Position numbers and translations under genes: made by a program. Shown here in pieces: positions 4,463 through 31,657 of a DNA stretch of 31,657 nt. Under the pieces are notes generated by a model. That model was not told the DNA's origin. It did not search any database and worked only from the letters and a program-made list of their open reading frames with translations. This DNA comes from Candidatus Auribacterota bacterium (GTDB taxonomy: Bacteria > Auribacterota > JAFGBW01): positions 1 through 31,657 of the forward strand of contig JAFGBW010000011.1 in assembly GCA_016932965.1 (NCBI GenBank), in the 5' to 3' direction. Each line of letters begins with the position of its first letter. Within the stretch, counting starts at the first letter, position 1.

Positions 4463-5989
4463 TCATGCGGCGGCAGACAGATCCTGTGTTGATTGAAGTG
4501 ATACAGGAGGAGCATGATCAGCGGCTTTGATTTCATTTTGAATGATTTCAAGTCCCCAGAGGGCACTGGCAACGCTGAACGCCTGTTTGCGGCATTTTTT
4601 AGGAACGACATACAAATAGTTTTTCCCGGTTTCGTCCGTTGATGTAATGACTTCTCCATCTGTGACCTCAGGCAGGCTGCCTCCTGTTTCGCCTTCCAAA
4701 TGGGTATAAGGGTCTTTTGTGAATCTCAGAAGGTCGACTGTCATTTGTTCAAGGGCTTCTAAAGGAGACAGCGATCCGATTTTGACAGCGGACGTGAACA
4801 GGAATGGATAGATCCAGACCCATCCGGTCCCGTTATGATAAGCCTGTCTCCATTCTTCAAGGGGCGCATGTTCCGGGAAAACGGAATGAAAGGTCGCATA
4901 AGGCCAACTGGCTTGAGAGTGGTCATGGGGGATGCTCACCTTCCAGCTGGTTCTGCCATCCGGCGATGACACTTTTTCATATTGATGGGTTGGTTTGGCA
5001 AGGCTTCTCAATGAGCCGGGGAGTCGCAGACGTTCCAGGGTGGATTGTACGATTTTTTCTGCCCGGTCGCCTTTGAACAGGCCGAAATGCACGGCCAGAA
5101 TCTGGTTGCAGCGCACGGACGGATCCGGCACAGCGAATTGAGGATGCTGGACAGCGTCTGTACCCAGGATATCGTAGACAGTATCTTCGGCCTCGTTCCA
5201 GAACAATTCATTAGCGCTTTTTTCTATTTTATCAGCCACGGTTCTGTATTGTTCTTTTTGTCCGGGATCGAGTTCACTCATGACATTGGCTGCGTTGAAC
5301 ATGAGCGCCTGTATTTCTATCGGGTATCCCTGCCGTCTGGTATAATCCGTATCCATCCAGGTTGAAACCGGCGGCACGTAAACAAACCCGGTTTCTGGAT
5401 GTCCCTGAACACCTATACCGGGTTCGGAATATTTTTTGAAAATATACTGAAGGGTCTGCAGCACGGTTTTATTTTCAGCGACTTTGATGCTGAGTATGGA
5501 GGTATCCCCGCTTGACTTGATATATTGATACAGACTTTCAACAAACCATAACGGGGCATCTGAAGTATTGTAAGTGGTGTGCCAGTCTGCTCTGTTTGCG
5601 ATGACATTGGGGATCTGTCCGTAATATTCCATCCGGGCCCATTTTAGAAGGATGTGTCTGGCAGGATCCAGTCGTCTTGTGGCCACAAGCCCTAAGATTG
5701 ATATCATGGAATCCCGTCCCCATTCCATGATTTGGATCGGGTATTCAGGTCTTCCTGCTTCAATCGCCCATTCACCGCGCGGGTCCATTTTGACAAAAGT
5801 TCCCATGGACTCATCCAATGTTTCAAACAGTTCCTCAACCCGATTGCCTGTAAGATCTTCTATGGGAGATTCGGATTTAAACCGGCTGATGGTGGCAAGA
5901 TGGTCCTCTCCTTGAGAAAAGCATAAGGGAATCTCAGTAAAAAACAGAAAGACAAATACAACATAATAGATCCATTTGTTATTGCTCAT
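4463..5989 (-). CDS. Exported glycogen-debranching-like glycosidase (GDE_C/GH133-like)
   Basis: Predicted exported alpha-glucosidase of the amylo-alpha-1,6-glucosidase type, 508 residues from the chosen start. Residues 1-26 form a signal peptide with a long hydrophobic core ending near FSQ. The (alpha/alpha)6-barrel signatures are visible: EWGRDSM (Asp93), NTSDAPLWF (Asp144), WMDTDYTRRQGYPIEIQAL in the middle, and SLPEV (Glu441) near the C-terminus. The same landmarks occur in the two following genes, so the three are paralogues. The ATG at 5989 is preferred because it begins the signal peptide; the open frame extends to 6103 without signal-like features. There is no Shine-Dalgarno sequence, and a TTGACA promoter abuts the start. 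It is divergent from the next gene across about 295 nt. It lacks an N-terminal sugar-binding domain, so it is shorter than most bacterial debranching enzymes. The substrate (glycogen, starch, another glucan) cannot be read from sequence. Confidence 0.82.
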   Translation of the reverse strand: MSNNKWIYYVVFVFLFFTEIPLCFSQGEDHLATISRFKSESPIEDLTGNRVEELFETLDESMGTFVKMDPRGEWAIEAGRPEYPIQIMEWGRDSMISILGLVATRRLDPARHILLKWARMEYYGQIPNVIANRADWHTTYNTSDAPLWFVESLYQYIKSSGDTSILSIKVAENKTVLQTLQYIFKKYSEPGIGVQGHPETGFVYVPPVSTWMDTDYTRRQGYPIEIQALMFNAANVMSELDPGQKEQYRTVADKIEKSANELFWNEAEDTVYDILGTDAVQHPQFAVPDPSVRCNQILAVHFGLFKGDRAEKIVQSTLERLRLPGSLRSLAKPTHQYEKVSSPDGRTSWKVSIPHDHSQASWPYATFHSVFPEHAPLEEWRQAYHNGTGWVWIYPFLFTSAVKIGSLSPLEALEQMTVDLLRFTKDPYTHLEGETGGSLPEVTDGEVITSTDETGKNYLYVVPKKCRKQAFSVASALWGLEIIQNEIKAADHAPPVSLQSTQDLSAAA

Positions 5990-5996
5990 GTCCCAA

Positions 5997-6025
5997 TTCT
6001 TACCTTTTATATTAAGAGTTGTCAA
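5997..6025 (-). promoter_or_regulatory. Candidate promoter for the minus-strand debranching gene
   Basis: Minus strand TTGACA (6025-6020), 17-nt spacer, TAAGAA (6002-5997), then 7 nt to the ATG at 5989. The transcript would begin at or next to the start codon. Spacing and -35 are ideal, the -10 is poor. Confidence 0.4.
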
Positions 6026-6201
6026 ATGAAGGGGGTGTATATTGATTTTACAGATATGGGGAAAGACCCGGGATTTGTAAAAAAATATTTTCGGATGTTT
6101 CATCGCAAAAGCCCGTTAGGGGCGGTCCGGTAAAAAGGAATGAGTTATGCCGGGAATATACGGTGATTGACAATTATGCATAAAAAAATGATTCGGATGG
6201 A

Positions 6202-6230
6202 TTGACAAGCTCTATCCCCAATGGTAAAGA
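6202..6230 (+). promoter_or_regulatory. Candidate promoter for the plus-strand debranching genes
   Basis: TTGACA (6202-6207), 17-nt spacer, TAAAGA (6225-6230). It would give a leader of about 48 nt carrying a good AAGGGGA Shine-Dalgarno sequence before the ATG at 6285. A second TTGACA at 6167-6172 has no convincing -10. The rest of the divergent region 5990-6284 is AT-rich with no further structure noted. Confidence 0.38.
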
Positions 6231-6284
6231 TTATGACATCCTTCGTTTAAGAAAAATGATTAAATTTACATAAGGGGACTGGGA

Positions 6285-8393
6285 ATGAAATCAATATATC
6301 TTCTGTTCATAAGTCTAATGATATATTCTTTTTTTATGATACCTACTCAAGCAAAGAATACAGGGGATGAAATATCATCGGTCTCCTTTTTATCACCTCA
6401 TAGCAATACAGAAGAGTACAGCAGGGACTTATCTCAGAAAGTGGAAACATTATTACATGTGTCTGACGAAAATTTTTGGTCATTGGCATTGAATGGAAGA
6501 CCTTACGGGATTGTCGCCACCATGCCGACAAGAATAAATGAGGGGCATGCCAGACAGGAGCGTTCCCCGGGGGATTATTTTGAAGTGTATTGCAGTGTCT
6601 ATGCTCCTGAAGATTATCCTGTTGACATGCAAGTGTGGACCAATCTGCCGGATGATAAAAGTTCAGATTGGCATTCTGTCAGTATGGAAGAAATCAGGGA
6701 GTTACCCAAAGATATCATCACCCCTGCAGGGCTTCCCTCGATGCGTATTTTCCGCGCATTACTTCCAGTCCCTCAGACAACAGGCATGATTTATGGCTAC
6801 ACATTAAGAATCAAGGGAAAAGATGAACAGGATGACAGATTTATTTATCAAACCAAACAGGGCATGCAAGGAAATTTGGTCGTCGGTGTCCAATCTTCTA
6901 AAGCCGAGGATGTTATGCCTCGCAGACCTCAAACTATTTGGACAACAGTTTCCATGGAGGAAATCCTGGATTCTTTTTTAAAGGCGGCTGACACGTTTGT
7001 CAAACCGCCGGATGAAAGAGATGCCTCAGGCAATGTTGATGAAACCCTGGCACAAAAGGAAAACAGGCGCGCCCGATATGACTGGGAAATATGGGCCGCT
7101 TCCTGGGACTGGTTTTTTGAGCAGTGGGGAAGGGACACGTTTATTGCGCTTCCCGGATTATTGCTTTCAACCGGAAGATTTGACGTGGCAAAAGCCATCA
7201 TGAGGAGTTTTGGAAAATTCGAAAGGAACGGGGTTATTCCAAACCGGGTCTGGGACCCCAGGTTTCCTGAAAATTTTGAGTACAACAACGCGGACGGATC
7301 CATGTGGTTTGTCCATGCCATGTATCAATACCTGGAATACACCCATGACTGGGAGTTCATGAAGGAAATGCTTCCCACCATCAGAAATATCATGAAGCAT
7401 TATTCAGCCAATGAACAGGAGACCCAGGCAAAATACGAACGTCTGGGAGTGGAATATAAAATTTATTCAGATCCGGACAAACTGATTGTGAGCCCCCCCC
7501 AGGGAACATGGTCAGATGCGCAGATTGTCAAACCAGGCTATGTGCATACGATCACTCCCAGGAACGGAAAAGTCGTGGAGATCAATGCCCTTTTTGATTT
7601 TAATCTGCAGTTTTTGGCTTTGCTGGAACACAAGATCGGAGACAAGTCAAAAATGGAGCCTCTGCTTGAGCAGAGAAAACAGGTCAGGGAGTCTTTTAAT
7701 GAAAAATTCTGGAATGCAGAAGAAGGATGTCTTTTTGATGTGGTTGACGGAGATCCTCATGGAAAGGCCATTCGTGCGAATATGCTTTTTGCCGTAAGCC
7801 TTGGAAACATTGATGAGTCCCTGCTTGATGATGATATCCAGGGAGATGCAAGACAGGAACTGACCCGGGCTTTGCTTTCCCCTGAACGCCAGATCAGTGT
7901 GTTTGATGTGGCACACCGGGAATTATGGACCAGATACGGACCGCGTACTCTTTCAACAAGAGATTCCAATTATAAACCATTTTATCCCCAGAGAAATACG
8001 GACCCGGAGATCAAGGATCCGATGTATCACCAGGGAACGGTATGGCCCTGGCTGACCGGTCCTTTTATCGATGCAGTAAATAAGGTCATGAAATTAAAGG
8101 GATTGAGCGACGAACAAAGAAAAGAAACCGTAAAAAAATATTTGACTCCTTTAGTCTCGTTCCTCATGCATGCCAGCGAAGCCAGATCGCTTCCTGAGGT
8201 TTTTAACGGCGGAGACCCCAATGATATAGGTTTGTATCAGTATGAAAGCGGACCCAGATCACAGGCATGGAGTGTTTCCGAAGTGTTGCGGGTCATGGTG
8301 GATGCGGGAATATTCATGCCGACACCGCAGAACAAATTAGCGGTAGCAAAAAATAGAATGGGAATAGCTTCTGAAGTAGAAGAAGCAGTATAA
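6285..8393 (+). CDS. Exported amylo-alpha-1,6-glucosidase-like protein (GDE_C/GH133-like)
   Basis: 702 residues. Residues 1-23 are a signal peptide ending near TQA-KN. Residues about 60-230 form a beta-rich N-terminal domain. The catalytic (alpha/alpha)6 barrel fills about 235-680, with QWGRDTFIALPGLL (Arg283, Asp284), NNADGSMWF (Asp337), a WSDAQ / VVEINAL block in the middle and SLPEVFNGG (Glu638) followed by SQAWSVSEVLR. These correspond to the acid/base and substrate-binding landmarks of bacterial glycogen-debranching enzymes. Cytoplasmic debranching enzymes lack a signal peptide, so export suggests a role on an extracytoplasmic or imported glucan. A strong ribosome-binding site (AAGGGGA) supports the ATG at 6285. 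The next gene starts 42 nt downstream on the same strand, so the two are probably co-transcribed. Confidence 0.87.
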   Translation: MKSIYLLFISLMIYSFFMIPTQAKNTGDEISSVSFLSPHSNTEEYSRDLSQKVETLLHVSDENFWSLALNGRPYGIVATMPTRINEGHARQERSPGDYFEVYCSVYAPEDYPVDMQVWTNLPDDKSSDWHSVSMEEIRELPKDIITPAGLPSMRIFRALLPVPQTTGMIYGYTLRIKGKDEQDDRFIYQTKQGMQGNLVVGVQSSKAEDVMPRRPQTIWTTVSMEEILDSFLKAADTFVKPPDERDASGNVDETLAQKENRRARYDWEIWAASWDWFFEQWGRDTFIALPGLLLSTGRFDVAKAIMRSFGKFERNGVIPNRVWDPRFPENFEYNNADGSMWFVHAMYQYLEYTHDWEFMKEMLPTIRNIMKHYSANEQETQAKYERLGVEYKIYSDPDKLIVSPPQGTWSDAQIVKPGYVHTITPRNGKVVEINALFDFNLQFLALLEHKIGDKSKMEPLLEQRKQVRESFNEKFWNAEEGCLFDVVDGDPHGKAIRANMLFAVSLGNIDESLLDDDIQGDARQELTRALLSPERQISVFDVAHRELWTRYGPRTLSTRDSNYKPFYPQRNTDPEIKDPMYHQGTVWPWLTGPFIDAVNKVMKLKGLSDEQRKETVKKYLTPLVSFLMHASEARSLPEVFNGGDPNDIGLYQYESGPRSQAWSVSEVLRVMVDAGIFMPTPQNKLAVAKNRMGIASEVEEAV

Positions 8394-8435
8394 TTGTTAT
8401 AGAACAAAGTATTCAATCCAAGAAAAACAATAAAA

Positions 8436-11400
8436 ATGAAGAAGGCGATGCTCAACAGAATCTGTTTCAGCTCCATTCTTCTGCTTCTTTTTTATTCTTT
8501 TTGCGGTTCAATCTCTTCTGAACCGGATTCCGGATATTTTTCCCAGTCCTCTTCTTGTTTATCTCCAAAACTTCAGACCGGCTCCATCGAGCTTTTAAGC
8601 GAATTCATCGGAAACTGTCTTGGAATTTTACCGGAGGATCCTTCCGAACGTAAGCAGAAAATCGGGGAGATCGCAAGACAGCTCAGGACGTTTTATTTCA
8701 TCAAGGATATCAAGTCTGATTCAGTCACAGCAATCCGCAGGCAGGGGACAGAGGCATTCACGATTTCCGTTGAAAGCGGAAGCACGTATACATTCAGTCT
8801 CACGCTACAACCCCTTCCGTCTGAAAAACTGGTTCAGGAACTGAAACTGGATCACGGCCCTGCCCATGTGGTGAAGGCGCATGACGGTTTTTATAAATTC
8901 GACGGAACGATATACAGCACTTCAGCGAATGAACCTGTGAAAGTCAAGGTGGCGGTTAAAAAGTCACAAAAGGAAAAAGACGCTGTTTTATATGTGCACA
9001 CCGGAGAGACATTCATCCCGTTGCAGAAAGTGAGCAGCAGGGACAATACGGATTTTTATGAAACGGATCTGGTTTTTCCCCAAGCCGGGATGTACAGCTA
9101 TCAGATCATAGCCGGAGACGGGATTGATGGTGAATCAGGAAAAGTCATCAATGAACTGGTTTCCCACAAAGTCTTTGTCAAAGTGGATCCCGCATGGAGC
9201 CGGGGTGTGAATGTTTATGATTCCATTCATCTGAAGATGGTCAGGAACCCGGAAATCGGGCTGGATCCGTCCAGGTTCGGAACATTCACAGACGCCAAAT
9301 GGTTGGTGGAGCAGAAAATAAAAATAGGCTGCCAGCTGTTTAAATTTCTACCGCTGACCCATTCAGGCGGTAAGAGTCCCTATTCACCTGTCAGTTCTTA
9401 TATGCCCAATCCTGAAAACATTGATTGGAAAGAAGTAGAAGACGAGGGAGAGACCCCGGATGAAAAAGCAGGCCATTTCTGGGCGCAATACGATAAAACG
9501 GAAGAGGGAGAATATACGGAAAGACAAAGAAAATTTCGCGACTTTACTTCGAGGAATTTTGTCGTGGAGTACGCGATTTATAACACCCTGAGAGATCTGG
9601 AGCATCCCATGCCCATCACGATGGGAGGGATGCTGCTGGGCAATATCAGTATCACCTTGAATGATGCTTTTAAAGAATTGGCCCGCACCAAGCAGATGGA
9701 TAAGCTGATGCAGATTCCGCAATTCAGGACCCTTTATCGGAAGAACTTATATCTCGCGTTCAATGCCTATACGCAGTTAAAGGATTTGATTGATTTTATT
9801 CATGCAAAAGGCGGAAGGATCTGTATTGATAAGCCTTTTTTTCTGAGCAGGAACAGCGTTGAGACTTTTTTCCACAGGGAACTCATCAAATCCACTCCCA
9901 ACGGCGACATGCTGTCCCCCTCGTTCGGAAACCCCGGTGATCCGAGTTATCAATACTGGGGGGATCTGGTTTTTCCTGATTTTGAGAAAATGAAGGGGTC
10001 CCATTATGATTTTTATCTGGATCCTCTTTCATTCTGGATTGATGATCTGGGAGTAGATGCCATGCGCTGGGATGCGGCGCATTACGCGCCCCTTGAAGTT
10101 TGGGATGAACTGGGGAAAAGAATCCAGGGAAAGGACGTATATATCCTGGGAGAGCAATTGGGAGGGGCCTGGGAAAAGGACTATCCGGGTAAGATATACG
10201 GGATCCATGTTTACGAAAATAATGAGTGCAACGCCAAGGACCCGGTTAATTTTGAAAAATACCTTGAATGGGTTTGCCGGAACAGGGATTACCCCATGCA
10301 TTCCTCTCATGACAGTTTCAAGGTGGCTGATTTTGACAATGAGCATCAGCGGTACGGCTGTTTTGCTGCCGAAGATCCGAGAGAGATGCAGGTCAAGGCC
10401 GTTTTGACCCAATTTGCTATGGGGGCTCCGATTTTTGCCTTTCAGATGGGGGATGAATATTTATCAAGGCATCGTATTCATCAGCCGGGCCAGCCCAGTG
10501 AATGGAATGAACGCTCGTATTGGGACCCGGAAATCAATAAGGAAGGCCATGACATCAGTGATTATCTGGAGAAGTTGAACCGTATGAGGAAGGAAAATCC
10601 CGCGCTGCAGGAATTGAATAATTTTGAAGCCGTTGGGAACAATAAAAAGAATGAAGGAGTGTCTTCCTTTATCAGGCATTCAAAGGACAAGGAAAATATC
10701 CTGCTGACATTGAATAATCTGAGCGGCAAAGAGCACAGCGGCGAGGTATTTGTTCCTTTCGGAGATCTGGGGGTGGACGCGCGCGAGGGTTTTACCTTGA
10801 CCAATCTTTTGACCGGAGAGGAAATCGAATTCACGGCAGGAAAGAACCTGTCTCCTGATAAAAATGTCATTACGTTTACATTAAAACCCGGCGAGGCAGT
10901 CGTGTTTGAATTGAGTGCGATCAGAAGACAGAACGGCTCTTATATGGATAAATGGCTGAGAAGAAATCTTTATTCCAAATTCGGTTTTTCTGATCCCCAG
11001 ATGGATCAGCTCGTCTCTTTGGATTTATTAAACAAAGCGAATAATGATCCTGCCCGAGTGATAGCATTGCTTTCCCGTTTTTCTTTTGAGGAGATCATGA
11101 GCAATATAGGCGAACTCATAACAAGAATCACTCAGGAGGATATAGATGAGTTGACCCGGGTCTGGACTTTTGATGACAAAAACAAGGTGGCCATGCCGAA
11201 GGAAAATCAGTGGCTCCTGGTCAAGACCAAAGAAGCCAACAATACCCAGCTCGGCAGAAAAGGTAAAGACGATATTGAAGCAGCTTCGGACGCCATCAGA
11301 ATCGGGGATGAATACTACAGCCTGATCAGTCCAAGGCAGACGGGGGATTACTGGCTGACATTCACCTGGGGCCTCCGGCCTGAAAGCGTTAAATATCATT

Positions 11401-14318
11401 TAAAGGTGCTTCCAAACTTTGAAAACATCAAAGATGAGATAGTCGGGCCTGATGATTTTCCTTCGGAAATCATCACCAGGGCGGATCTGGAGAGGATTCC
11501 CGCTGATGCGGAAGTAACGCTGGCGAACGGGAAAGGCGCCATCTCCCGTATTCCATTGAGAGGCATTCATCTTGAAGGTGAAAATATGCGGGGGTATATC
11601 AGCAAATACGATGGTGAGCTTCTGGGTAATTTAAGCACCCGGTTTCCTGAAGACCGCAAGTTGATTGTGAAAGGTTCCCATGCGGTGGTGAAAATTGACG
11701 GGGTGGATCATCAGTTGAATGATTCAACCTTTTACCAGTTCCAGCGATATCCTTTCCCGGTATGGCAGTATAAAATAGGTGAAGGGGAGAACGAGGTCAT
11801 CATTGAACGCACCGTTTCCATGGTCAGGAAGGAAAACAACACGGTGTCCAACTACCGGATAGTCAAGGCTCCGCCTGGAAAGAGAGTCACATTGTATGTC
11901 CGTCCTCACCTGGCTATGCGGAGTTTCCATGAAAATACCAAGGCCTCCAGCCATGAAATGAAGGAACACTGGCAGAGAAGCTGTTGGGCTATTGATATCG
12001 GCGAGAACGGTAAGGGCGTTGGATTCAATCCTGTTGGAACGGGCTGGGGAGACAATTATAGGGGTACTTATGTCATGGCCAACAAAGGTAAATACAACAT
12101 GGATCACCACTGGTGGTTTAATGTCATGCTGCCCAAGGAAGAAGCCAGAGGGCAGGATCATACGGAAGATGTCTTTTCGCCCGGGTTTTTTGAGATTGAT
12201 CTGGGAGATGGAGAAAGTGTGGATATCTCCTCTGCCATGGCTTCCTATGATGATCAGCTGCCTCAGAACCGGGCAGGATTTTACAGCAGTCAATCCATGG
12301 AAAACAAAAGACAGGAGGAAATGGCCCGTCAGAGAAATTTATATGCCGCCATCCCCAATGTTGCGGCAAGGCAGGATGGCTTTGTCAGGAAGCTGGTGAC
12401 AGCAACAGATTTGTTTATCTGTGACAGGGATGACCATAAGACCGTGATTGCAGGATATCCCTGGTTCACTGACTGGGGCAGGGATACATTCATTGTGGTC
12501 ATGGGAATGCTCAAAGCCGGCATGTTTGAAGATGTGAAAGATATTATCCTGCAGTTTTCCCAATTCGAGGAATTCGGAACCCTTCCCAATATCATTCACG
12601 GTGAAGAAGCAGGCAACAGGGACACCGTGGACGCACCGGTGTGGATGTTTGAGATCATCAGGCAATACATGGAAATGACCGGCGAAAAAATATTAGATGA
12701 AATATTGCCCGTCAGACACAACGCAAGAGAGATCAGGGATAATCCCCGGTTTTTGGAAAAGGGGGAACTGGACTCCGTCACTTTGCCGAACTGGTTTGTG
12801 GATAACATAGAAGGGCTCCTTCCGGCGGTTTATCACGAGGAGCAGCGACAAAAACTGGAAGGCTGGGGTGATGCCCAGGCGATAAAAATGGTCAGCACCA
12901 CCACTTTTACAAAAGAACAGTTCTTAAAACTGGTTAAAGAAGAAGATCCTTCAAAGGCACTGGAAAGGCTGAATCAGTGTATTCAATGTATCCATATTTT
13001 AGCCGCATCAAAGGCGATTCAGAATGAACAGGAGAGGAACGGGTACCGGGATAATGTGTTAAATTGCATGAAAATCGTTTTAAAAAGGGATGTGAGAGGG
13101 GTTTTAAAAAGCATTGTGCAGAATTATATCAGGGGCACGCCCAACGGCATCCAGATGGACATGCAGAGCTGCCTTGTTTATTGCCCCCCGCATTATACCT
13201 GGATGGATACGAATTTTCCTGCCTGCACTCCGAGGGAAGGGTATCCATTGGAAATCCAGGCCTTATGGTGTAAAGCATTGGATTTCCTGACGGGACATGA
13301 ACCGCCAGGGGATGCACGGAATTTTTATTCAAAAACTGCGGAAACAGCCAGAAAGAGTTTCAATGACTTGTTCTGGGACGAAAAGGACGGTTATTTATAC
13401 GACAATTTAAGGGCCGCAAGAAAGGAAGGTGCGCTAGGTTCGGCCTCGCAGGCTGAAAAAGATCCGGCTTTCCGTTCCAACCAGTCCATTCCCATATTAC
13501 TGGGTCTTGTGGACAGGGAAAAGGCCCAGCGGGTGGTGACTGCCATGTATCAGAAACTCGTTATGCCTGGCGGAATCCGTTCCCTGGCTGAAGGATCCGG
13601 TTCCATTGACGGATTTGGTTTTGAGGGATGGTACGCGGGAGATGAAGATAGCAAAAGGAAGCGGGCCTATCATAACGGCACAGCCTGGACTTTTCCCCTG
13701 GCGCAATTCATGCTGGCTTATGCCAAAGCGTTTGATTATTCGAAAAAATCCATTGAAGAAATGCTGGTCTTGTTCGAAACCGTGAAGGAGCATTTAAGGG
13801 AAGCAGGTATTGGGAATATTTCTGAAATCATGGATGGAAACGCGCCGCACATAACACGCGGCTGTGATGAACAGGCCTGGGGTGCATCGGAATTTTTAAG
13901 GGCGTATATTGTGCTTAAATATGAATATCATAAAAGTTATCAGGATGCCGCTGGTAAAATGGATGAATTGATGGAGCCTCAAAACAAGAATTTTGCAGCC
14001 TGGCAGGAGGCGTTGTCAAAAATAAGCAGCCCGGTTCATTATGAGATTACTTTCACCAAAAAAGAGGGCGAACAGCAGGTATCTCTCTCCATCCCATCAA
14101 CCGGAAACCAGGAAGAAGATGCTGTTATGGCCGCTTATTATGTTAAATTATATCTGGTTCAGAACAAACTCAACTTCCGGAAAATAACTCCAGTTGAAGT
14201 CAAGTTGAACGGGGCAGTTTCATTGTCCCTGTCCGGTTCAGTCCAATCGTATCTGAAAAGAGGCTTGGCCGTTCTGGAAGGTTTCTATCAAGAAAGAATC
14301 CTCCCCGCTTCTGCCTGA
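8436..14318 (+). CDS. Giant exported GH13-GH133 fusion (bifunctional debranching-enzyme-like)
   Basis: 1960 residues. A signal peptide (about 1-28) is followed by a Ser-rich CLSPKL stretch, a helical segment and an Ig-like sheet domain (about 140-250). A GH13-type barrel then spans about 255-830: ICIDKPFF in the region I position, DAMRWDAAH with nucleophile Asp546, ILGEQ with acid/base Glu573, and SSHDSF with Asp626; its opening recalls GlgE-type enzymes. Residues about 1000-1300 resemble the GDE N-terminal sugar-binding domain (GDEYYSLISPRQTGDYWL). Residues about 1320-1870 are the GDE_C barrel: DWGRDTF (Asp1350), DTVDAPVW (Asp1399), TWMDT (Asp1591), SEIMDG (Glu1797). The last 90 residues are unassigned. 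The transferase-plus-glucosidase order echoes the eukaryotic debranching enzyme AGL, which is cytoplasmic and about 1500 residues. The ATG at 8436 begins the signal peptide but has no clear Shine-Dalgarno sequence. Activity and substrate are inference. Confidence 0.85.
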   Translation: MKKAMLNRICFSSILLLLFYSFCGSISSEPDSGYFSQSSSCLSPKLQTGSIELLSEFIGNCLGILPEDPSERKQKIGEIARQLRTFYFIKDIKSDSVTAIRRQGTEAFTISVESGSTYTFSLTLQPLPSEKLVQELKLDHGPAHVVKAHDGFYKFDGTIYSTSANEPVKVKVAVKKSQKEKDAVLYVHTGETFIPLQKVSSRDNTDFYETDLVFPQAGMYSYQIIAGDGIDGESGKVINELVSHKVFVKVDPAWSRGVNVYDSIHLKMVRNPEIGLDPSRFGTFTDAKWLVEQKIKIGCQLFKFLPLTHSGGKSPYSPVSSYMPNPENIDWKEVEDEGETPDEKAGHFWAQYDKTEEGEYTERQRKFRDFTSRNFVVEYAIYNTLRDLEHPMPITMGGMLLGNISITLNDAFKELARTKQMDKLMQIPQFRTLYRKNLYLAFNAYTQLKDLIDFIHAKGGRICIDKPFFLSRNSVETFFHRELIKSTPNGDMLSPSFGNPGDPSYQYWGDLVFPDFEKMKGSHYDFYLDPLSFWIDDLGVDAMRWDAAHYAPLEVWDELGKRIQGKDVYILGEQLGGAWEKDYPGKIYGIHVYENNECNAKDPVNFEKYLEWVCRNRDYPMHSSHDSFKVADFDNEHQRYGCFAAEDPREMQVKAVLTQFAMGAPIFAFQMGDEYLSRHRIHQPGQPSEWNERSYWDPEINKEGHDISDYLEKLNRMRKENPALQELNNFEAVGNNKKNEGVSSFIRHSKDKENILLTLNNLSGKEHSGEVFVPFGDLGVDAREGFTLTNLLTGEEIEFTAGKNLSPDKNVITFTLKPGEAVVFELSAIRRQNGSYMDKWLRRNLYSKFGFSDPQMDQLVSLDLLNKANNDPARVIALLSRFSFEEIMSNIGELITRITQEDIDELTRVWTFDDKNKVAMPKENQWLLVKTKEANNTQLGRKGKDDIEAASDAIRIGDEYYSLISPRQTGDYWLTFTWGLRPESVKYHLKVLPNFENIKDEIVGPDDFPSEIITRADLERIPADAEVTLANGKGAISRIPLRGIHLEGENMRGYISKYDGELLGNLSTRFPEDRKLIVKGSHAVVKIDGVDHQLNDSTFYQFQRYPFPVWQYKIGEGENEVIIERTVSMVRKENNTVSNYRIVKAPPGKRVTLYVRPHLAMRSFHENTKASSHEMKEHWQRSCWAIDIGENGKGVGFNPVGTGWGDNYRGTYVMANKGKYNMDHHWWFNVMLPKEEARGQDHTEDVFSPGFFEIDLGDGESVDISSAMASYDDQLPQNRAGFYSSQSMENKRQEEMARQRNLYAAIPNVAARQDGFVRKLVTATDLFICDRDDHKTVIAGYPWFTDWGRDTFIVVMGMLKAGMFEDVKDIILQFSQFEEFGTLPNIIHGEEAGNRDTVDAPVWMFEIIRQYMEMTGEKILDEILPVRHNAREIRDNPRFLEKGELDSVTLPNWFVDNIEGLLPAVYHEEQRQKLEGWGDAQAIKMVSTTTFTKEQFLKLVKEEDPSKALERLNQCIQCIHILAASKAIQNEQERNGYRDNVLNCMKIVLKRDVRGVLKSIVQNYIRGTPNGIQMDMQSCLVYCPPHYTWMDTNFPACTPREGYPLEIQALWCKALDFLTGHEPPGDARNFYSKTAETARKSFNDLFWDEKDGYLYDNLRAARKEGALGSASQAEKDPAFRSNQSIPILLGLVDREKAQRVVTAMYQKLVMPGGIRSLAEGSGSIDGFGFEGWYAGDEDSKRKRAYHNGTAWTFPLAQFMLAYAKAFDYSKKSIEEMLVLFETVKEHLREAGIGNISEIMDGNAPHITRGCDEQAWGASEFLRAYIVLKYEYHKSYQDAAGKMDELMEPQNKNFAAWQEALSKISSPVHYEITFTKKEGEQQVSLSIPSTGNQEEDAVMAAYYVKLYLVQNKLNFRKITPVEVKLNGAVSLSLSGSVQSYLKRGLAVLEGFYQERILPASA

Positions 14319-14344
14319 TGGTTTTTTCAAAACGAAAAAACCAT
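14318..14344 (+). other. Perfect hairpin at the stop codon of the giant glycosidase
   Basis: ATGGTTTTTTC (14318-14328) and GAAAAAACCAT (14334-14344) are perfect 11-nt arms around AAAAC. The hairpin begins on the last base of the TGA stop. It is AT-rich and has no T-run after it, so it could be a weak terminator or a processing site. It also makes the ATG at 14318 an unlikely start for the next gene. Confidence 0.5.
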
Positions 14345-14398
14345 TTGAAATTGTCATCCTCTTTCAATATATTGCCTTTCATGAAGTTGGGCGATTCA

Positions 14399-15016
14399 AT
14401 GAAAATGTTACCCGTAATTCCGGTCTTTTTTCTTCTTTTCTTTTTGCTTCCCCTTGAAGCTGCCAAGGTGACAAGGGTGATCAACAGGCCGGTCAATAAA
14501 TCGTTTAATCGGTCTATTATGAAGGGGGATCCAGGCACTGAAGACAGCATCACCAAAGTGAAAACAACCGAACAGATTGAAGCGGTCCTGAAACAGATTG
14601 AAGCCCAGGATATCAGACAGTACCGCTATTTAAAAAGCATCCAGACGAAATATTTCGACAAATTCCTTGAATATTTGAACAAATGGGTGAATGAATTAAG
14701 CCCTGAAAAAATGGCTGAAAGAAAACAGGACATCCAGCAAAGGCAGAAAGATCTGCAGCTTGCCATGAGAAAAGCGGTTGAATCCTACACTGGGGAACCC
14801 GACGAGACGAAAAGGCAGGAGTATAAAAAAAAGATAAAAAAAATCATGGATGAGCTGTTTTCTGTTGAACTGGAATGGGATGAAATCATGGTTCTCCTGA
14901 AGAAAAAGGAAGCGGCATATCTGGAGACCCAACTGGAAAATAAAAGGAAGGACAAGTCCTCCTTTATTGATAAAACCTGCGGCAGATTCTATTTGAAGGC
15001 TGAAGATTTTAAATGA
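14399..15016 (+). CDS. Small exported helical protein, function unknown
   Basis: I do not recognise this family. From the ATG at 14399 it has 205 residues. It starts MKMLPVIPVFFLLFFLLPLE, a signal peptide with likely cleavage after EAA. The mature part is highly charged and almost all helical (many Lys, Glu, Gln), with heptad-like stretches around TTEQIEAVLKQIEAQDIRQY and ELEWDEIMVLLKKKEAAYLE, so a coiled-coil periplasmic or membrane-attached protein is likely. The frame is open back to an ATG at 14318, but that lies inside a hairpin and would put an unusual 27-residue extension before the signal peptide. Its stop overlaps the following PilZ gene by 4 nt (ATGA), so the two are translationally coupled and probably work together. 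It follows the giant glycosidase by 80 nt. Confidence 0.72.
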   Translation: MKMLPVIPVFFLLFFLLPLEAAKVTRVINRPVNKSFNRSIMKGDPGTEDSITKVKTTEQIEAVLKQIEAQDIRQYRYLKSIQTKYFDKFLEYLNKWVNELSPEKMAERKQDIQQRQKDLQLAMRKAVESYTGEPDETKRQEYKKKIKKIMDELFSVELEWDEIMVLLKKKEAAYLETQLENKRKDKSSFIDKTCGRFYLKAEDFK

Positions 15017-15654
15017 ATGAGATTTTCCAGCCGGACGGATTCGATTACAACGGGATTGAAAGAAGAAAATATATCCGGTTTTCGTACCATTATCCGGTCC
15101 GTCACCGCAGGATGGGGGAAGATACCTATCAGGAATCTGAAAGCGATAATATCAGCCTGGGCGGCGTCATGTTTTATTCCTCAAGGAGTTATGGAGTCGG
15201 GGAAAATATCGACTTGGAACTGGATTTTCCTCTGGGAAGCGGCCACCAGATCATCGCTGTTTCAGCCATGGTATGCTGGATTCAGAAAAAAGAGATGCCC
15301 CCGTATTCATACAGCATGGGGGTTTCATTCAATTCTCTTTCTGAGGATCAGTTGCAGCAGCTTCAGACCATGGTTCAGACTTTTCTTGAATATAAACAGA
15401 AACAATTTTCCTTAGTAACGGAAGACACTCTGGAAAAAAACAAAGAGGAAGCGAGGATATTGTTCATCAAGGGACTGGAATATTTCAGAAATGATCTTTT
15501 AGATGAGGCTATAGATGCTTTTTCCCGTGTGATCCAGCTGATACCGTCTCACGCCGCGGCCTATTCTTACAGGGCCTATTCCCATGAAAGAAAAGGCGAA
15601 TCCAGGAAAGCGGAAGAAGATTACATCAAGGCCAAGGAATTGGGCGGATTTTAG
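15013..15654 (+). CDS. PilZ domain protein with C-terminal TPR repeats
   Basis: 213 residues, cytoplasmic. The PilZ domain (about 14-130) carries both cyclic-di-GMP binding motifs: RKYIR (Arg18, Arg22) and DNISLGG (Asp45, Ser48, Gly50). About residues 140-211 form two TPR helix pairs (ARILFIKGLEYFRNDLLDEA; AAAYSYRAYSHERKGESRKA), a protein-protein interaction module. The likely role is a c-di-GMP receptor that passes the signal to a partner through the TPRs. The start ATG overlaps the stop of the coiled-coil exported protein, making that protein the first partner candidate. It sits downstream of the exported debranching enzymes, which suggests c-di-GMP control of that glucan locus; this is inference. 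Confidence 0.85.
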   Translation: MNEIFQPDGFDYNGIERRKYIRFSYHYPVRHRRMGEDTYQESESDNISLGGVMFYSSRSYGVGENIDLELDFPLGSGHQIIAVSAMVCWIQKKEMPPYSYSMGVSFNSLSEDQLQQLQTMVQTFLEYKQKQFSLVTEDTLEKNKEEARILFIKGLEYFRNDLLDEAIDAFSRVIQLIPSHAAAYSYRAYSHERKGESRKAEEDYIKAKELGGF

Positions 15655-20605: not shown

Positions 20606-22291
20606 ATGAGATATTTTGTCAGCATACCCCTTTATATAATGGTTTTTTTTCTTATCCTTGGAGTGATCCGGCCTCTTGAAATAAAGGCGGAATCGGCTTC
20701 CATCAAGGTTAAAAAGGACTGGTTTATCGTTAACGGGGAGCGTTTTCTGATCAAAGGAATAGGTTATTCCAATTGCCGTCCTCATGAGCAGCCCAATACA
20801 AAACGAATTGATCTGGAACAGGAGAGAAAGGAATTTGCCATTATCAAGGCGGCGGGATTCAATACCTTGCGGACATGGAAACCCATGACACTGGAGGAGC
20901 TTAAACTGGCCAATGAATTCGGGCTGTATGTTATTCAGGGAATGTGGATTGAATACCAGCAGAATTTTACCGACCCTGAAAGGGTGACTCAGATTGTGGA
21001 GCAATTAAAACCCATCGTCAAAGAGAGCTCCCAGGCGCCCAATGTTTTGATGTATGTAGTTGGAAATGAACCCCAGCCTGCCCAGGTGTTTTCAGTCGGG
21101 CATAAAAATACCAACGATTTTTTTAAGCTGTTACGGGATCAGATCAAGCAGCAGGCCCCTCATGCAGTTGTTACCATGTCCAACTGGGTTCAGTCGGATT
21201 TCTTAGACGATTACATGTGGGACGTGGCCGCTTTTAATATTTATATTTATAATCCTGAATCCGTTAATCACGCGATGGGATACAGGGGATATGTCAACTG
21301 GCTTAAAAACACCCGTGCTCCGAAAAGGCCTCTCATCAATACAGAGATGGGGCTTTCCACTTCCAAAGGCGGAATAGGACTTTGGGGTTATGGAGGAAAC
21401 TCCGAGGTGGAACAGCAGGAAGGGGTTCTATACATGTACCGCGAAGCTTTCAACGGAGGCGCAACAGGGGCCTGTGTTTTTGAATGGATAGACGAATGGT
21501 GGAAAAATTTCAATCACGGTTCCGACTGGGACGTCCATGAACCGGCTGATCCGGAGGAATGGTTTGGGATCTGCTATTACGATGAAAACGGGGAACTTCA
21601 GAAAAAACCGGTTTATAGTGCCCTGCAGGAGTTCAATCAGGCCATTTGCGTCACCCCGAAAGATTCTGAGAAAGTCAGTAAAAGCAGCCCCGTGGAAATT
21701 TATACGGAGGAAGATATAAAGGAAGTGTCTGTCAGCGTGGGGATAAACCAGGACTGGGACTGGATACCGTTGAAGCGTGCCTCTCCGCATTGGTTTACAG
21801 GGAAATTGAACGTGAAAAAGATGCCGGACGGGAAAACCGAGCTCAGAATAAAGGCCAAAGCCAAAACCAATATGGAATACGTGAAAAAACAGGTGATTTA
21901 TATTGATAATGCCAGGAAGATGGATGAGCCTTATCAGGTTTCAGTGAGTCTGAGCGAGCATGTCGTCTATACCAATAACCGGACAACCCCGATCAAGCTG
22001 ATGTTTGATGTCACGAACGCGAAAAAGAAAAAAGTCGCTGGAGAGACTGTTACTTTTTCCATCTATGAGCCTGTTCTCAATCAGAAGCTCAAACTGTCCA
22101 AAATAACAGATAAAAACGGCAGGGTGGAGCATGTTTATTTGTTGAACGAGGAGGGGGTCCTCACAGTGGCCGCAGGTGTTGTTGCCTATCCCTCAGAGGC
22201 CAAAGGCGTTACAGATACAACCTATCTGGTTAAGAGCGGGGATTGCAAACATGTCTACATTTATTATGAAAAGGAAGGGGGAAAAAGATGA
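20606..22291 (+). CDS. Exported clan-A glycoside hydrolase-like protein (GH2/GH5-type TIM barrel)
   Basis: 561 residues. Residues 1-28 are a signal peptide (core LYIMVFFLILGVI). The barrel covers about 35-350. It opens with FIVNGERFLIKGIGYSN, as in GH2 TIM-barrel domains, and has AAGFNTLRTW on an early strand, the acid/base candidate Glu155 in VVGNEPQ, and the nucleophile candidate Glu247 in INTEMG. ACVFEWIDEWWK completes the clan-A pattern. Residues about 355-560 are two beta-sandwich domains, the second resembling an Ig-like or carbohydrate-binding fold. The ATG at 20606 has GGAG 7 nt upstream. The stop overlaps the next gene by 4 nt, so the two glycosidases form a coupled pair. The family and substrate are not certain: beta-glucan, mannan or a cell-surface glycan are all possible. 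Confidence 0.8.
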   Translation: MRYFVSIPLYIMVFFLILGVIRPLEIKAESASIKVKKDWFIVNGERFLIKGIGYSNCRPHEQPNTKRIDLEQERKEFAIIKAAGFNTLRTWKPMTLEELKLANEFGLYVIQGMWIEYQQNFTDPERVTQIVEQLKPIVKESSQAPNVLMYVVGNEPQPAQVFSVGHKNTNDFFKLLRDQIKQQAPHAVVTMSNWVQSDFLDDYMWDVAAFNIYIYNPESVNHAMGYRGYVNWLKNTRAPKRPLINTEMGLSTSKGGIGLWGYGGNSEVEQQEGVLYMYREAFNGGATGACVFEWIDEWWKNFNHGSDWDVHEPADPEEWFGICYYDENGELQKKPVYSALQEFNQAICVTPKDSEKVSKSSPVEIYTEEDIKEVSVSVGINQDWDWIPLKRASPHWFTGKLNVKKMPDGKTELRIKAKAKTNMEYVKKQVIYIDNARKMDEPYQVSVSLSEHVVYTNNRTTPIKLMFDVTNAKKKKVAGETVTFSIYEPVLNQKLKLSKITDKNGRVEHVYLLNEEGVLTVAAGVVAYPSEAKGVTDTTYLVKSGDCKHVYIYYEKEGGKR

Positions 22292-24177
22292 GATCATCCG
22301 TCAAATGGTTATGCCTTATTTTCATGATTTGTTCCTGTGGTTTTGCTGAACCGTTGTTTAAACAGAATGACGAAGGCACGGAATTCCCTGTGGATTATTC
22401 TCAATACGGGGAATTCAAAAATATGGGAACATCTGAGTATGAATATGTCGTCAAGGACGATATGCTCCTGGCCAAGGCAACAGGGGACGGGATTTTCCCG
22501 AATAATTTCACCATTTACTACGATCCCGCATATAAACAATTGACAGCCGAACGCCGTCTTCAGGGTTCCATATGGGATCTGGTCAATACGGCCGATGTCC
22601 AGGCCTGCTATATCAAATGGGCCATTGAAGAAAATGAAGAACCCGGGGTCAAGCAATTTTATATCGCGCATAATCTGGAACGGGCGGGGTTGCTCAAACA
22701 AGCGGTCAAAGCCTATTATGCCTGCGTGGTGCATTTTCCCCGTTCAGTCGGATGGACATACTGGATGACACCCTGGTATGTCGGGCCCACCTGCATCAAC
22801 ATCATTGAATTCCTGCTTCGTGAACATCCTGAAATCGGATGCACCCTGGTTGATGCGGATATTTTTGTGGAAAACGGCTTTGATAACGACGTCAGCAATG
22901 ACATCTATACCATCAATCCCGGAACAATCGTTAAAACGGAAACAATCAAGAAAAATCCGAAATCACCGGGTAAAGTGGTTCAGACATTAGGCGGGGAGTA
23001 TGGCAAAGTGGTTCAATATGAAAACGGCGACTGGCAGTTTATGATGGAAGGACGGCCTGTTCTCGTCAAATCTATTTCCTATCAGCCCGAGCCTGTCGGC
23101 CAGTCTTATGACGAGGGAACCATGGCAGATTGGATGAAATATGACACCAATGAAAACGGCCTTCCGGATTCCCCTTTGGAAGCCTGGGTGGATAAAAACG
23201 GTAATAATGTTCAGGATCCGGACGAACCCAATGTCGGGGATTTTCAGCTCATGAAGGAAATGGGGACCAACTGCATCCGTTTGTATCATCATTCCACCAA
23301 CAAGGAGCTGTTGAAGACGGCTTATGAAAAATACGGTTTGTATTCGATGATGGGAGACTTGCTCGGCATGTATTGTGTCGGGTCCGGCGCAGCCTGGGAT
23401 GACGGAACGGATTATACGAATGAAGAACAAAAGAAAAACATGCTGGAAAGCGTGAAGAAAATGGTGGAGGAGTATAAGGACGAACCCTATGTCTGCATGT
23501 GGGTATTGGGAAACGAGAACAATTACGGCGGTGTTTTCGGCCATACCGGAGGCGTCGGGAACGCGGGGCAGAAACCGAATGAATATTATGCCTTTGTGAA
23601 TGAAGCAGCGAAATGGATCAAGTCCGTGGACAAGAATAGACCTGTTGCCATCTGCAACGGGGATCTAGGGTTTTTGAATATTTTTGCCAGGCAATGCCCG
23701 GATGTGGATATTTATGGTATCAATGCTTACCGGGGAAAACACGGTTTTGGAAGGAGTTTATGGTACTGGGTAAAGAAGATGATCGACCGGCCTGCCATCA
23801 TCATGGAATATGGATGTCCGGCCTTTCACGAGGGGCAGCCTTTTGAAGTGGCGTTTGCCGAACAAATGGAGTATGACGAAGGATGCTGGAAGGATATCGA
23901 ATACAATTCCTATCTGGGAGAAGGAGCCGGAAACGCGATAGGCGGGGTTTTATTTCAGTGGGTGGACGGCTGGGCCAAGTCAGGGCAGCCTCCCCGGTAT
24001 TCTCCATCTGTTCATGAAACCATCGGCCAGTGGCCCGGACCCTTCCCGTCGGGATGGAGTTATGAGGAATGGTTTGGCATCTGCGGACATGGAAACGGGA
24101 CAAAGACGCCGATGATGCGTGTCCTGCGTCCAGCGTATTATAAATACAAGGAATTGTGGAATCGATCCGCTTCTTAA
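22288..24177 (+). CDS. Exported or lipid-anchored clan-A glycoside hydrolase-like protein
   Basis: 629 residues. The N-terminus WLCLIFMICSC could be a lipoprotein signal (Cys at the end of ICSC) or an ordinary signal peptide cut after GFA. Residues about 30-230 are a helical region with TPR-like character (QFYIAHNLERAGLLKQAVKA). The TIM barrel spans about 255-615: Glu410 in LGNENN as acid/base and Glu507 in IMEYGCPAF as nucleophile, with VLFQWVDGW near the end. An acidic loop pair at residues 286-313 (DTNENGLPD, DKNGNNVQDPDE) looks like calcium-binding loops inserted in the barrel. It is translationally coupled to the gene before it (ATGA overlap), and a strong GGAAGGGGG ribosome-binding site precedes the ATG. 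Both proteins share the EEWFGIC motif near the barrel end, so they are distant paralogues. Substrate unknown. Confidence 0.8.
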   Translation: MRSSVKWLCLIFMICSCGFAEPLFKQNDEGTEFPVDYSQYGEFKNMGTSEYEYVVKDDMLLAKATGDGIFPNNFTIYYDPAYKQLTAERRLQGSIWDLVNTADVQACYIKWAIEENEEPGVKQFYIAHNLERAGLLKQAVKAYYACVVHFPRSVGWTYWMTPWYVGPTCINIIEFLLREHPEIGCTLVDADIFVENGFDNDVSNDIYTINPGTIVKTETIKKNPKSPGKVVQTLGGEYGKVVQYENGDWQFMMEGRPVLVKSISYQPEPVGQSYDEGTMADWMKYDTNENGLPDSPLEAWVDKNGNNVQDPDEPNVGDFQLMKEMGTNCIRLYHHSTNKELLKTAYEKYGLYSMMGDLLGMYCVGSGAAWDDGTDYTNEEQKKNMLESVKKMVEEYKDEPYVCMWVLGNENNYGGVFGHTGGVGNAGQKPNEYYAFVNEAAKWIKSVDKNRPVAICNGDLGFLNIFARQCPDVDIYGINAYRGKHGFGRSLWYWVKKMIDRPAIIMEYGCPAFHEGQPFEVAFAEQMEYDEGCWKDIEYNSYLGEGAGNAIGGVLFQWVDGWAKSGQPPRYSPSVHETIGQWPGPFPSGWSYEEWFGICGHGNGTKTPMMRVLRPAYYKYKELWNRSAS

Positions 24178-24241
24178 CACTGAGCGGATTCATGAGCAGA
24201 CCGCCGGATGACAAGGAGGCGGATTTGAAAAGGGGTGCTCT

Positions 24242-24931
24242 TTGGATTCTGAAAACAAAGAGATCATCACGGATCAGAATTTTATCAGAAAATATCTGGT
24301 CACTGGAGAGAGTCTCTTTGTCTTCATCAAAATCGGCACATCTTATCAATTCGATAAAACCTATGTTTTTTCCTGTGACGAGGAGCGTTTTCTTATTCAG
24401 AGGCCGTATCAAAAGGGTCAGCGTGTTATTCTCACTCCTGGAATGGAGTTCTTTTTTAAATTATTTCCTTTTGAGGGATATTTTGAATTTTCCTGTATTT
24501 GCGGGGAAATCCTGACTTTCAAAGGCAAAGAATGCCTTGTTTTTCCTTATCCGTCCAGCCTCACCCGGATTCAGCGCAGGCAGGCGTTTAGGGTGCCCAT
24601 ATCTCTTCCGGGTAAATTCGTCATCAAAAGTTCCAGTTGTTTTATTCATGATGTCACGGTGACGGATTTGAGCGTTGCTGGAGCGCGTATCTCGGCCAAC
24701 TTCAATGTGACGGCGGATTCGGAAGGAACACTCAGTTTTCTGTTTCCCGTACAGCCCCCCGTGACTTTTTCGGTTCCTGTGAGGATTCAGCGTGCTCAGA
24801 AGATAACAAATGAAAGGAGTAATTACGCTTTTTCCTATGGTCTGCTTTTTCTATCGCTCACTTCGGTCCAGGAAAAAATATTGAGCCGTTATGTGAATGA
24901 GGTCCAGCTCCGCCATCATTTGAGTAGATAA
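24242..24931 (+). CDS. YcgR-like PilZ domain protein (c-di-GMP receptor)
   Basis: 229 residues, cytoplasmic. The N-terminal beta-rich part (about 1-105) resembles the YcgR/PilZN flagellar-brake-like domain. The C-terminal PilZ domain has QRRQAFRVP (Arg113, Arg117) and DLSVAGARI (Asp142, Ser144, Gly147), both c-di-GMP binding motifs. The TTG start at 24242 is chosen because AAGGGG lies about 7 nt upstream and the frame is closed by a TGA only about 30 nt before it. It follows the exported glycosidase pair by 64 nt on the same strand and is likely in their operon. No flagellar gene is nearby, so the domain name should not be taken as proof of motility control. Confidence 0.83.
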   Translation: MDSENKEIITDQNFIRKYLVTGESLFVFIKIGTSYQFDKTYVFSCDEERFLIQRPYQKGQRVILTPGMEFFFKLFPFEGYFEFSCICGEILTFKGKECLVFPYPSSLTRIQRRQAFRVPISLPGKFVIKSSSCFIHDVTVTDLSVAGARISANFNVTADSEGTLSFLFPVQPPVTFSVPVRIQRAQKITNERSNYAFSYGLLFLSLTSVQEKILSRYVNEVQLRHHLSR

Positions 24932-29907: not shown

Positions 29908-31657
29908 TCAGGCGGCGGAACTCAGTAATTCTGCCTGACTGGAAGAAGGCTGCAGACTGTCAATGAACCCAGAGTAACGTAATCGGATCAAGCTGTTGGC
30001 GGCGTTCCAGGCATAGGCATTATCCACATGGTGGGCGAGCGGCATATAAATGTAAGGGGTGCCCGGATAAGGCCATTGGGCGGTTTGACCAAATCCTTCG
30101 GGTCCTATGATGGCAGGAAGGCCGAATTCAGGAGAGCAGAGATTGTTTAAAGTCAGCACGGAATTTCCTGCTTCCGCATAGAGGGTGTCTGCAATATCAG
30201 GGTATCCTTCTTCAACGGCAAATTCAGAAGAATCCAATAAGGCTGAAGCGTTATTTCCGGTCAACTCAGTCCATACAGGCATGAGTTCGTTATGCTCGAG
30301 ACCGTCCGCATGAAATTGTTTTAAAAGAGCGTGCGAAATAGTCGTGGTTGTTTCACCGGGATTGACGCTCCAGTTGTAGGTCACATTATCAACACCCCAG
30401 GTGGCATTCGTCCAGGTATCATTGGACAAAACCCATTCTGCTGTGAAAAGGGCATCCAAAAGACTTTGCGTTTCCGGCTGGATGGCATCAGAATAATTAT
30501 AATATAAACGATGTGCCAGTTTGCGGAATTCCACCTGTCCCTCTGCACCCTCCCAGTTCGCCAGACTCCATACAGGAAGCCCATTCGGGTCAAATGCAAA
30601 CGTGGCGGCATCTGCACCGGTATAACGGGCCCAGGCTGAAAAAATATCTTCTGCGGCCCTCAAATAGACCATATTTGAGGCGGTATTTAAATCATACAAC
30701 GACAACAGAAGCTGGGCAAAACGGGAATTTTCTTCAGGATTGGCAAAATCATCTGAATAAGGGGTCTGTCTGTAAACCGTGTACGTTGTGGTTTGATGAG
30801 GGACGGACAAGGTCCATGCAGAGGGCGAAACAGCATTTCCCATAATCGCGTTTACCAGGTTTTGAACAGCGTTCTGAATCTGTATGACCAGGCCTGCATC
30901 CTCAATTTTTTCGGATAACAATAACAATCCCTGTCCGAGTTTAGCCAGGGGGCCGAGCATGGGCATTTCCACTCCTCCGGAATTGCCGTAGGCGCTGTCC
31001 CAGGTGTTGTCGATGTTCTGAAGGGTCAGCAGGATTTCAACCTGGGTTAATATTTCATCTATTTCCTGGGAGTTCAGATCATCAAAGTTGGGAACAATGT
31101 AATCCTCCAATAACACTCCGAAATCATAAATATAGCATCTGGATAATGATGATCCCACATTGGAATCAACAGGAACACTCTGAGAAGGGTCGCCGGGCAA
31201 TCCCTGATTATAATAACTGCTTAAAAGTCCCAGGGCATTTTTTCTGTCCGGATTCAAAAGCCACTGCCTGCATATGACCTCAGAGGTTTTCGTTTGTAAT
31301 TCTAAAGCAGCATCTACGATAGGATCGCCTGTTGCAGGATCTGATGTCCTGGAACAGTCATCGACAGGATCAGTCCCTCCTGTTCCTGTACCGCCGGTAT
31401 CTGTTGGGCCTGTACCGCCAGTATCAGTGGGTCCTGTGCCACCAGTGTCGGTTGGCCCGGTACCACCAGTGTCAGTGGGTCCTGTTCCGGCGGTATCATC
31501 AGGGATAACATTTCCGGTTCCGCCATCATCGGTTTGTCCTGTTCCGGCGGTATCATCAGGGATAACAGGCCCGGTTCCGCCATCGTCGGTTTGTCCTGTT
31601 CCGGCGGTATCATCAGGGATAACATTTCCGGTTCCGCCGTTAGAATCAACAGGCTCA
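29908..31657 (-). CDS. Secreted or surface protein with Gly/Thr/Asp repeat linker, partial
   Basis: The frame is open from the right edge of the window to a TGA at 29908-29910, giving 582 visible residues; the start is outside. Visible parts in order: a repeat linker (19-residue units such as NVIPDDTAGTG then QTDDGGTG, followed by four PTDTGGTG octamers), a short DPVDDCSRTSDPATGDP stretch, and a C-terminal domain of about 470 residues. That domain is rich in Trp, Tyr and Asn and predicted largely helical (LGPLAKLGQGLLLLSEKI; RFAQLLLSLYDLNTASNMVY), which could be an alpha/alpha-toroid like many polysaccharide-active proteins. I do not recognise the family. A short, low-complexity-linked, Asp/Thr-rich architecture indicates an extracellular protein. 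A TTG at 31257 could be mistaken for the start, but the same frame continues upstream through the linker. Confidence 0.72.
   Translation of the reverse strand, partial: EPVDSNGGTGNVIPDDTAGTGQTDDGGTGPVIPDDTAGTGQTDDGGTGNVIPDDTAGTGPTDTGGTGPTDTGGTGPTDTGGTGPTDTGGTGTGGTDPVDDCSRTSDPATGDPIVDAALELQTKTSEVICRQWLLNPDRKNALGLLSSYYNQGLPGDPSQSVPVDSNVGSSLSRCYIYDFGVLLEDYIVPNFDDLNSQEIDEILTQVEILLTLQNIDNTWDSAYGNSGGVEMPMLGPLAKLGQGLLLLSEKIEDAGLVIQIQNAVQNLVNAIMGNAVSPSAWTLSVPHQTTTYTVYRQTPYSDDFANPEENSRFAQLLLSLYDLNTASNMVYLRAAEDIFSAWARYTGADAATFAFDPNGLPVWSLANWEGAEGQVEFRKLAHRLYYNYSDAIQPETQSLLDALFTAEWVLSNDTWTNATWGVDNVTYNWSVNPGETTTTISHALLKQFHADGLEHNELMPVWTELTGNNASALLDSSEFAVEEGYPDIADTLYAEAGNSVLTLNNLCSPEFGLPAIIGPEGFGQTAQWPYPGTPYIYMPLAHHVDNAYAWNAANSLIRLRYSGFIDSLQPSSSQAELLSSAA
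31384..31626 (-). repeat. Coding tandem repeats (57-nt and 24-nt units)
   Basis: On the minus strand three 57-nt units start at 31626, 31569 and 31512 (peptide NVIP/PVIP-DDTAGTG..). The last runs into four 24-nt units starting at 31479, 31455, 31431 and 31407, each encoding PTDTGGTG. Copies differ mainly at synonymous third positions. The array continues toward the window edge (GGTGNV is preceded by DSNG). Confidence 0.88.

Follow-up and report, generated by a model that had tools for sequence, protein, structure and literature searches.

Three neighboring genes of a Candidatus Auribacterota bacterium, here called A, B and C, probably encode enzymes for the indirect debranching of a branched alpha-1,4/1,6-glucan (glycogen or starch fragments) outside the cytoplasm, the glucan being either external or periplasmic. 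The largest of the three proteins, C, combines a putative glucanotransferase with a debranching-type glucosidase and could carry out both debranching steps by itself. That the substrate is an alpha-glucan is suggested by family membership and conserved residues, and the activities and division of labor among A, B and C are likewise predictions from sequence. The sequence-only reading had placed three open reading frames at 4463-14318 of the window (the whole stretch of 31,657 nucleotides that was analyzed), where they were indeed located, together with two further genes downstream:

4463..6103, minus strand: gene A, stand-alone GDE_C (GH133-type) protein (Pfam GDE_C, E=4.9e-54)
6104..6284, no strand: A-B intergenic gap of 181 bp, within which both promoters are presumed to lie
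6285..8393, plus strand: gene B, 702 aa, with predicted signal peptide, N-terminal part and GDE_C barrel (Pfam, E=2.8e-77)
8436..14318, plus strand: gene C, 1960 aa, with GH-H barrel, GDE_N and GDE_C (Pfam, AlphaFold, Foldseek)
14318..15016, plus strand: gene D, 232 aa, charged and helical-looking, with predicted signal peptide (no Pfam match; PADLOC matches marginal only)
15013..15654, plus strand: gene E, PilZ-TPR protein (Pfam PilZ, 1.7e-14, and TPR)

The assignment of all three proteins to the GDE_C barrel, proposed earlier from the letters alone, was borne out by Pfam, which placed them in the debranching-type (GH133) family far above chance (E=5e-54, 3e-77 and 5e-74 for A, B and C; scores of 184, 261 and 250 bits, with the cut-off at 21). 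The WGRD, D-x-x-W (DAPLW in A, DGSMW in B, DAPVW in C) and (S/P)E(V/I) (PEV, PEV and SEI, respectively) landmarks of that reading are present in each protein, and a further catalytic acid, the Asp of a TW(M/S)D motif, was absent from its list. When a profile built from B and 20 relatives was aligned to the Candida glabrata debranching enzyme (CgGDE) and human GDE (E ~1e-53 to 1e-55), counting along the alignment equated the WGRD Asp with CgGDE D1078, the TW(M/S)D Asp with D1241 and the (S/P)E Glu with E1492. Mutagenesis and structure showed these CgGDE residues to be needed for, or to line, the glucosidase site (PMC4837477). The corresponding acids, in the same order, are D131/D251/E479 in A (546-aa numbering), D284/D411/E638 in B and D1350/D1591/E1797 in C, and the three columns were invariant in 12 aligned proteins. 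Structure prediction agreed with this picture for B, the barrel of which spans residues 271-669, while residues ~20-215 of its N-terminal part were poorly modeled; the best Foldseek match of the AlphaFold model (pLDDT 69.5) was CgGDE.

Protein C is organized as a predicted signal peptide, an 'SSSCLSPK' stretch, an unassigned N-terminal part, a beta-sandwich, a GH-H glucanotransferase-like barrel (~281-800), GDE_N (1057-1262), GDE_C (1325-1822) and a C-terminal extension of ~130 aa, with an insert of ~110 aa in GDE_C at ~1432-1543. Residues D546, E573 and H625-D626 were invariant among 16 homologues, and D546, E573 and D626 correspond to the residues that serve in clan GH-H as nucleophile, acid/base and transition-state residue. 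The domain matched the GH77 profile PF02446 with 53.4 bits against a cut-off of 25, a match confined to profile positions 12-266 of 465. A Foldseek search with its AlphaFold model (residues 120-885) instead gave GH13-type enzymes as the top 50 matches, with GlgE first and neopullulanase among them, so that GH77 was not the closest fold. Because the sequence profile indicates GH77, the fold search GH13, and the pLDDT of the model is only 70.8, the transferase is referred to simply as a member of clan GH-H. With a glucanotransferase-type and a GH133 domain in one chain, C is predicted to be bifunctional.

Signal peptides were called with our own heuristic, which scores hydrophobicity and a cleavage site, rather than with SignalP. 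B and C scored positive from their first ATG; A did so only when read from an internal ATG (5989), which gives the 508-aa protein of the sequence-only reading, while the 546-aa reading from the ATG at 6103 lacks an N-terminal hydrophobic core. The shorter form is more likely the true start, and with it the earlier statement that each of the three begins with a signal peptide stands. The same heuristic found signal peptides in D and in two GH2_C proteins of the window and none in LeuA, the PilZ-TPR protein, the CN-hydrolase, HGD-D, GcvT or either half of GcvP. A, B and C thus appear to be exported from the cytoplasm. That export is unusual for debranching enzymes, as had been suggested, agrees with a survey of 82 GDE_C homologues, from which proteins with cut-off N-termini had been omitted: only four were signal-positive (L065, L066, L068 and L109, the last doubtful), and none was among the eight archaeal-type enzymes, seven of which come from the phylum of the window. 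In longer stretches, the Omnitrophota GH77-GDE_C proteins L217, L222, L225 and L226 have starts that look signal-peptide-like by eye.

Two sequence patterns were observed beside these N-termini. A short L(A/S)P stretch follows soon after the signal peptide in 6 of 46 sampled proteins with a signal-peptide-like start, compared with 2 of 120 others; carriers are C (~38-46, SSCLSPKLQ), B (~34-39, FLSPHS), L065, L066, L198, L214 and L215 (751-3018). The adjacent Omnitrophota genes L225 and L226 have a post-signal stretch in common (LPxPG ... RGLxVxPxxP), as though a single domain tied to export had spread across several proteins.

B and C are separated by 42 bp, C and D overlap at TGATG and D and E at ATGA, and this tight packing suggests that B, C, D and E form one operon, probably closed by gene E, with A divergent. 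The true start of D probably lies further inside, at MKMLPVIPVFFLL..., and gene E is a possible c-di-GMP receptor. The divergent promoter around which the cluster had been described was upheld as far as the gene orientation and the 181-bp gap are concerned, but promoter-like matches in the gap region (23) did not exceed those in shuffled sequence (19.3 +/- 4.8), and the idea of a conserved promoter between A and B was dropped. Further out lie genes of housekeeping or unrelated function (UvrD, LeuA, CN-hydrolase, a ferredoxin-type protein, HGD-D, GcvT and GcvP) and two exported GH2_C-type proteins. The latter are adjacent TIM-barrel proteins at 20606-24177 whose genes overlap by 4 bases and are followed by a PilZ gene; a separate reading frame that runs out of the window (29908-31656, minus strand) bears TGGTGP/DTGGTG-type repeats and matched nothing in Pfam. 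Among the window reading frames scanned, none had a recognizable binding module, and neither a transporter nor a SusC/D pair was recognized; the locus thus differs from Sus-like starch utilization systems, in which SusC/SusD stand beside the hydrolases.

The relationships of the three barrels were less uniform than had been supposed. In a tree of 78 rows (quick search, midpoint root), B grouped with nine GDE_C domains of long or giant Omnitrophota proteins (SH-aLRT 99), whereas A and C fell within a clade of bifunctional fusions (support 92), close to four proteins of Omnitrophota, of which three have a predicted signal peptide. Because B and A/C lie on separate branches of the family and C is predicted to be bifunctional, the proposal of three paralogues of one kind acting stepwise was not supported. 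Tandem duplication of one ancestor was rejected on the same separation, in a quick search in which A is long-branched. The very long branch of A (2.54) suggests that its specificity may have changed, and A is the least certain of the three in role. The affinity of B is also apparent in pairwise identities, which were mostly 42-48% to the long or giant Omnitrophota reading frames compared and ~27-36% to stand-alone GDE_C proteins.

GDE_C was found at E<=1e-15 in 47 of 384 Omnitrophota genomes, in 27 of which it lies in an open frame of >1380 aa and in 12 in frames of >5000 aa, with a maximum of 38,661. Two of these giants were examined for domain content. L217 (G114:C7:158000-177999), a minus-strand reading frame of >6600 aa with a signal-peptide-like start, contains within its first 5000 aa sigma-70 region 4 matches, GH77, GDE_C, DUF3417 and alpha-glucan phosphorylase, a single chain that brings together the steps of glycogen phosphorolysis. 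In L216 (G133:C26:1-20000), GH77 and GDE_C precede GGDEF, a glycosyltransferase and several methyltransferase domains, a mixture that makes its cellular location hard to infer. A contig profile scan yielded 80 loci, many of them encoding fusions, in Verrucomicrobia, Desulfobacterota, Lentisphaerae, Planctomycetota and Acidobacteria as well as in Omnitrophota, and Pfam confirmed six of these, each from another group. The GH13-GDE_N-GDE_C fusions L070, L073, L074, L116, L140 and L144, from several bacterial phyla, run contrary to a 2016 statement that the GH13-GH133 fusion had never been observed in bacteria; weak hDGE_amylase matches were seen in five of eight fusions scanned. Within the phylum of the window, genomes of group g27 encode a GH13-GDE_N-GDE_C protein of 1366-1463 aa without a signal peptide, next to a glucan phosphorylase-like gene, joined in a single genome by a glycogen synthase-like gene (both read by eye), while GDE_C is absent from the window's two same-order relatives. 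At E<=0.01, the fetched loci contained no relatives of the N-terminal part, insert or C-terminal extension of C, of the N-terminal part of B, or of D.

In its own genome (92.6% complete), GDE_C occurs at this locus only. Elsewhere are one clear GlgA, one GlgP, two full GH77 proteins (MalQ-like) and about a dozen GH13 matches, taken from sequences read by eye to include GlgB, two GlgX-like proteins, TreY, TreZ and TreS; on contig C284, an exported GH13 alpha-amylase adjoins a TonB-dependent receptor. Because an ordinary glycogen set is thus present, A, B and C are considered additional to it. Contamination of the genome bin was not supported: with genome composition sampled as 20 stretches, the tetranucleotide distance of the window (0.126) lay within the 0.064-0.213 of the sampled contigs (one stretch of GC 0.03, probably masked, left out), and LeuA is 65-66% identical to proteins of two same-phylum genomes, compared with 29-30% for two same-order genomes.

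In the mechanism proposed, the GH-H domain of C would shift short alpha-1,4 chains off a branch; the alpha-1,6-linked glucose left over would be hydrolyzed by the C-terminal GH133 barrel of the same protein. B and A would act as exported single-domain glucosidases that remove the same type of stub, giving one transferase for three glucosidases at the locus. The linear chains and glucose released in this way would undergo further cutting outside by the separate exported alpha-amylase and then be imported, whereupon the ordinary cytoplasmic GlgP/GlgX/MalQ set would handle them.

Other roles were weighed against extracytoplasmic debranching of this kind. PilZ domains are linked with c-di-GMP control of surface polysaccharides, and the presence of a PilZ-TPR gene at the end of the operon, together with the region 20606-24931, where another PilZ gene follows two more exported proteins that resemble TIM-barrel glycosidases, could mean that A, B and C remodel an extracytoplasmic alpha-glucan of the cell itself (a capsule or periplasmic glucan) rather than external food. 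However, no glycosyltransferase, flippase or polymer exporter was recognized in the window, and GH133 enzymes have been described as catabolic (PMC11046441), so that this alternative is considered unlikely. A giant protein of Velamenicoccus has been proposed to degrade the surface polysaccharides of target cells (PMC10066038), and the position of B in the tree beside GDE_C domains from long and giant proteins of Omnitrophota, as well as the union of GH77, GDE_C and alpha-glucan phosphorylase behind the signal-peptide-like start of L217, would fit a comparable use of exported debranching enzymes in predation on, or scavenging of glycogen from, other cells. Nevertheless, the Omnitrophota group that was searched does not include the organism of the window, the window itself shows no sign of predation, and the giants are mosaics that also include GGDEF, methyltransferase and sigma-region-4 domains, making their role hard to infer; a predatory or scavenging function is accordingly rated as quite improbable.

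It is also conceivable that A, B and C stay in the cytoplasm despite their hydrophobic N-termini and are redundant debranching enzymes for glycogen there, since nearly all other family members lack a signal peptide and the relatives of C in family f16 adjoin cytoplasmic GlgP and GlgA. All three genes and the operon member D nevertheless carry N-terminal segments missing from the cytoplasmic relatives, and the genome possesses a separate glycogen set, which leaves very little room for this explanation.

The domains involved are already known, as is the bifunctional layout from eukaryotes; in bacteria this layout is, on present data, widespread and apparently little noted, no description of it having been found in the literature searched, which did not extend to subscription papers or preprints. 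The exported versions and the A-B-C arrangement likewise appear to be undescribed in that literature. Several bacterial phyla have GDE fusions, and the fusion of this window looks exported. It may tentatively be suggested, with rather less confidence than the function of the locus itself, that Omnitrophota and this lineage possess an undescribed extracytoplasmic branch of glycogen debranching, based on exported bifunctional transferase-glucosidases, the modules of which occur as separate genes or as parts of giant proteins, sometimes with alpha-glucan phosphorylase. The earlier view that the locus matches no described type needs qualification: Omnitrophota encode apparently exported proteins of the GH77-GDE_C and GH77-GDE_N-GDE_C types, but the three-gene arrangement was found nowhere outside this genome among the loci searched.

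Among known systems, the eukaryotic enzymes (CgGDE and human AGL) resemble C in having a glucanotransferase domain followed by a GH133 barrel in one chain, and the three acids of CgGDE are kept in A, B and C. With intact D546/E573/D626 and GDE_C, C is laid out like the bifunctional enzyme of eukaryotes, but it looks exported, its transferase matches GH77/GH13 instead of hDGE_amylase, and GDE_N serves as the linker domain. C is predicted to work like the eukaryotic enzyme while standing outside its equivalog family (TIGR01531, 43.4 bits against a cut-off of 1399.55). The archaeal-type GDEs (TIGR01561) and stand-alone Omnitrophota GDEs have the GDE_C barrel in common with the three proteins and no signal peptide in those checked, and A, B and C scored 117, 191 and 188 bits against the TIGR01561 cut-off of 364. 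Bacterial GH13-GDE_N-GDE_C fusions (~1370-1570 aa; Verrucomicrobia, Desulfobacterota, Planctomycetota, Acidobacteria and others) have the domain order of C, which is 31-32% identical to two of them; unlike C, they mostly lack a signal peptide and have a typical GH13 (PF00128) transferase. Omnitrophota L065 and L066 share with C the predicted signal peptide, post-signal 'LSP', GH77 match, GDE_N and GDE_C (27-28% identity over the long N-terminal part and ~41% over the last GDE_C part), with no A or B homologue adjacent in the fetched flanks. Finally, the GH77-GDE_C module that recurs in long and giant proteins of Omnitrophota has a transferase domain similar to that of C and a barrel close to that of B; in the window, the corresponding domains reside on separate proteins of ordinary size. 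For giant Omnitrophota reading frames, few annotated domains have been described (PMC10066038), and the recurrence of this module assigns a testable enzyme function to some of them.
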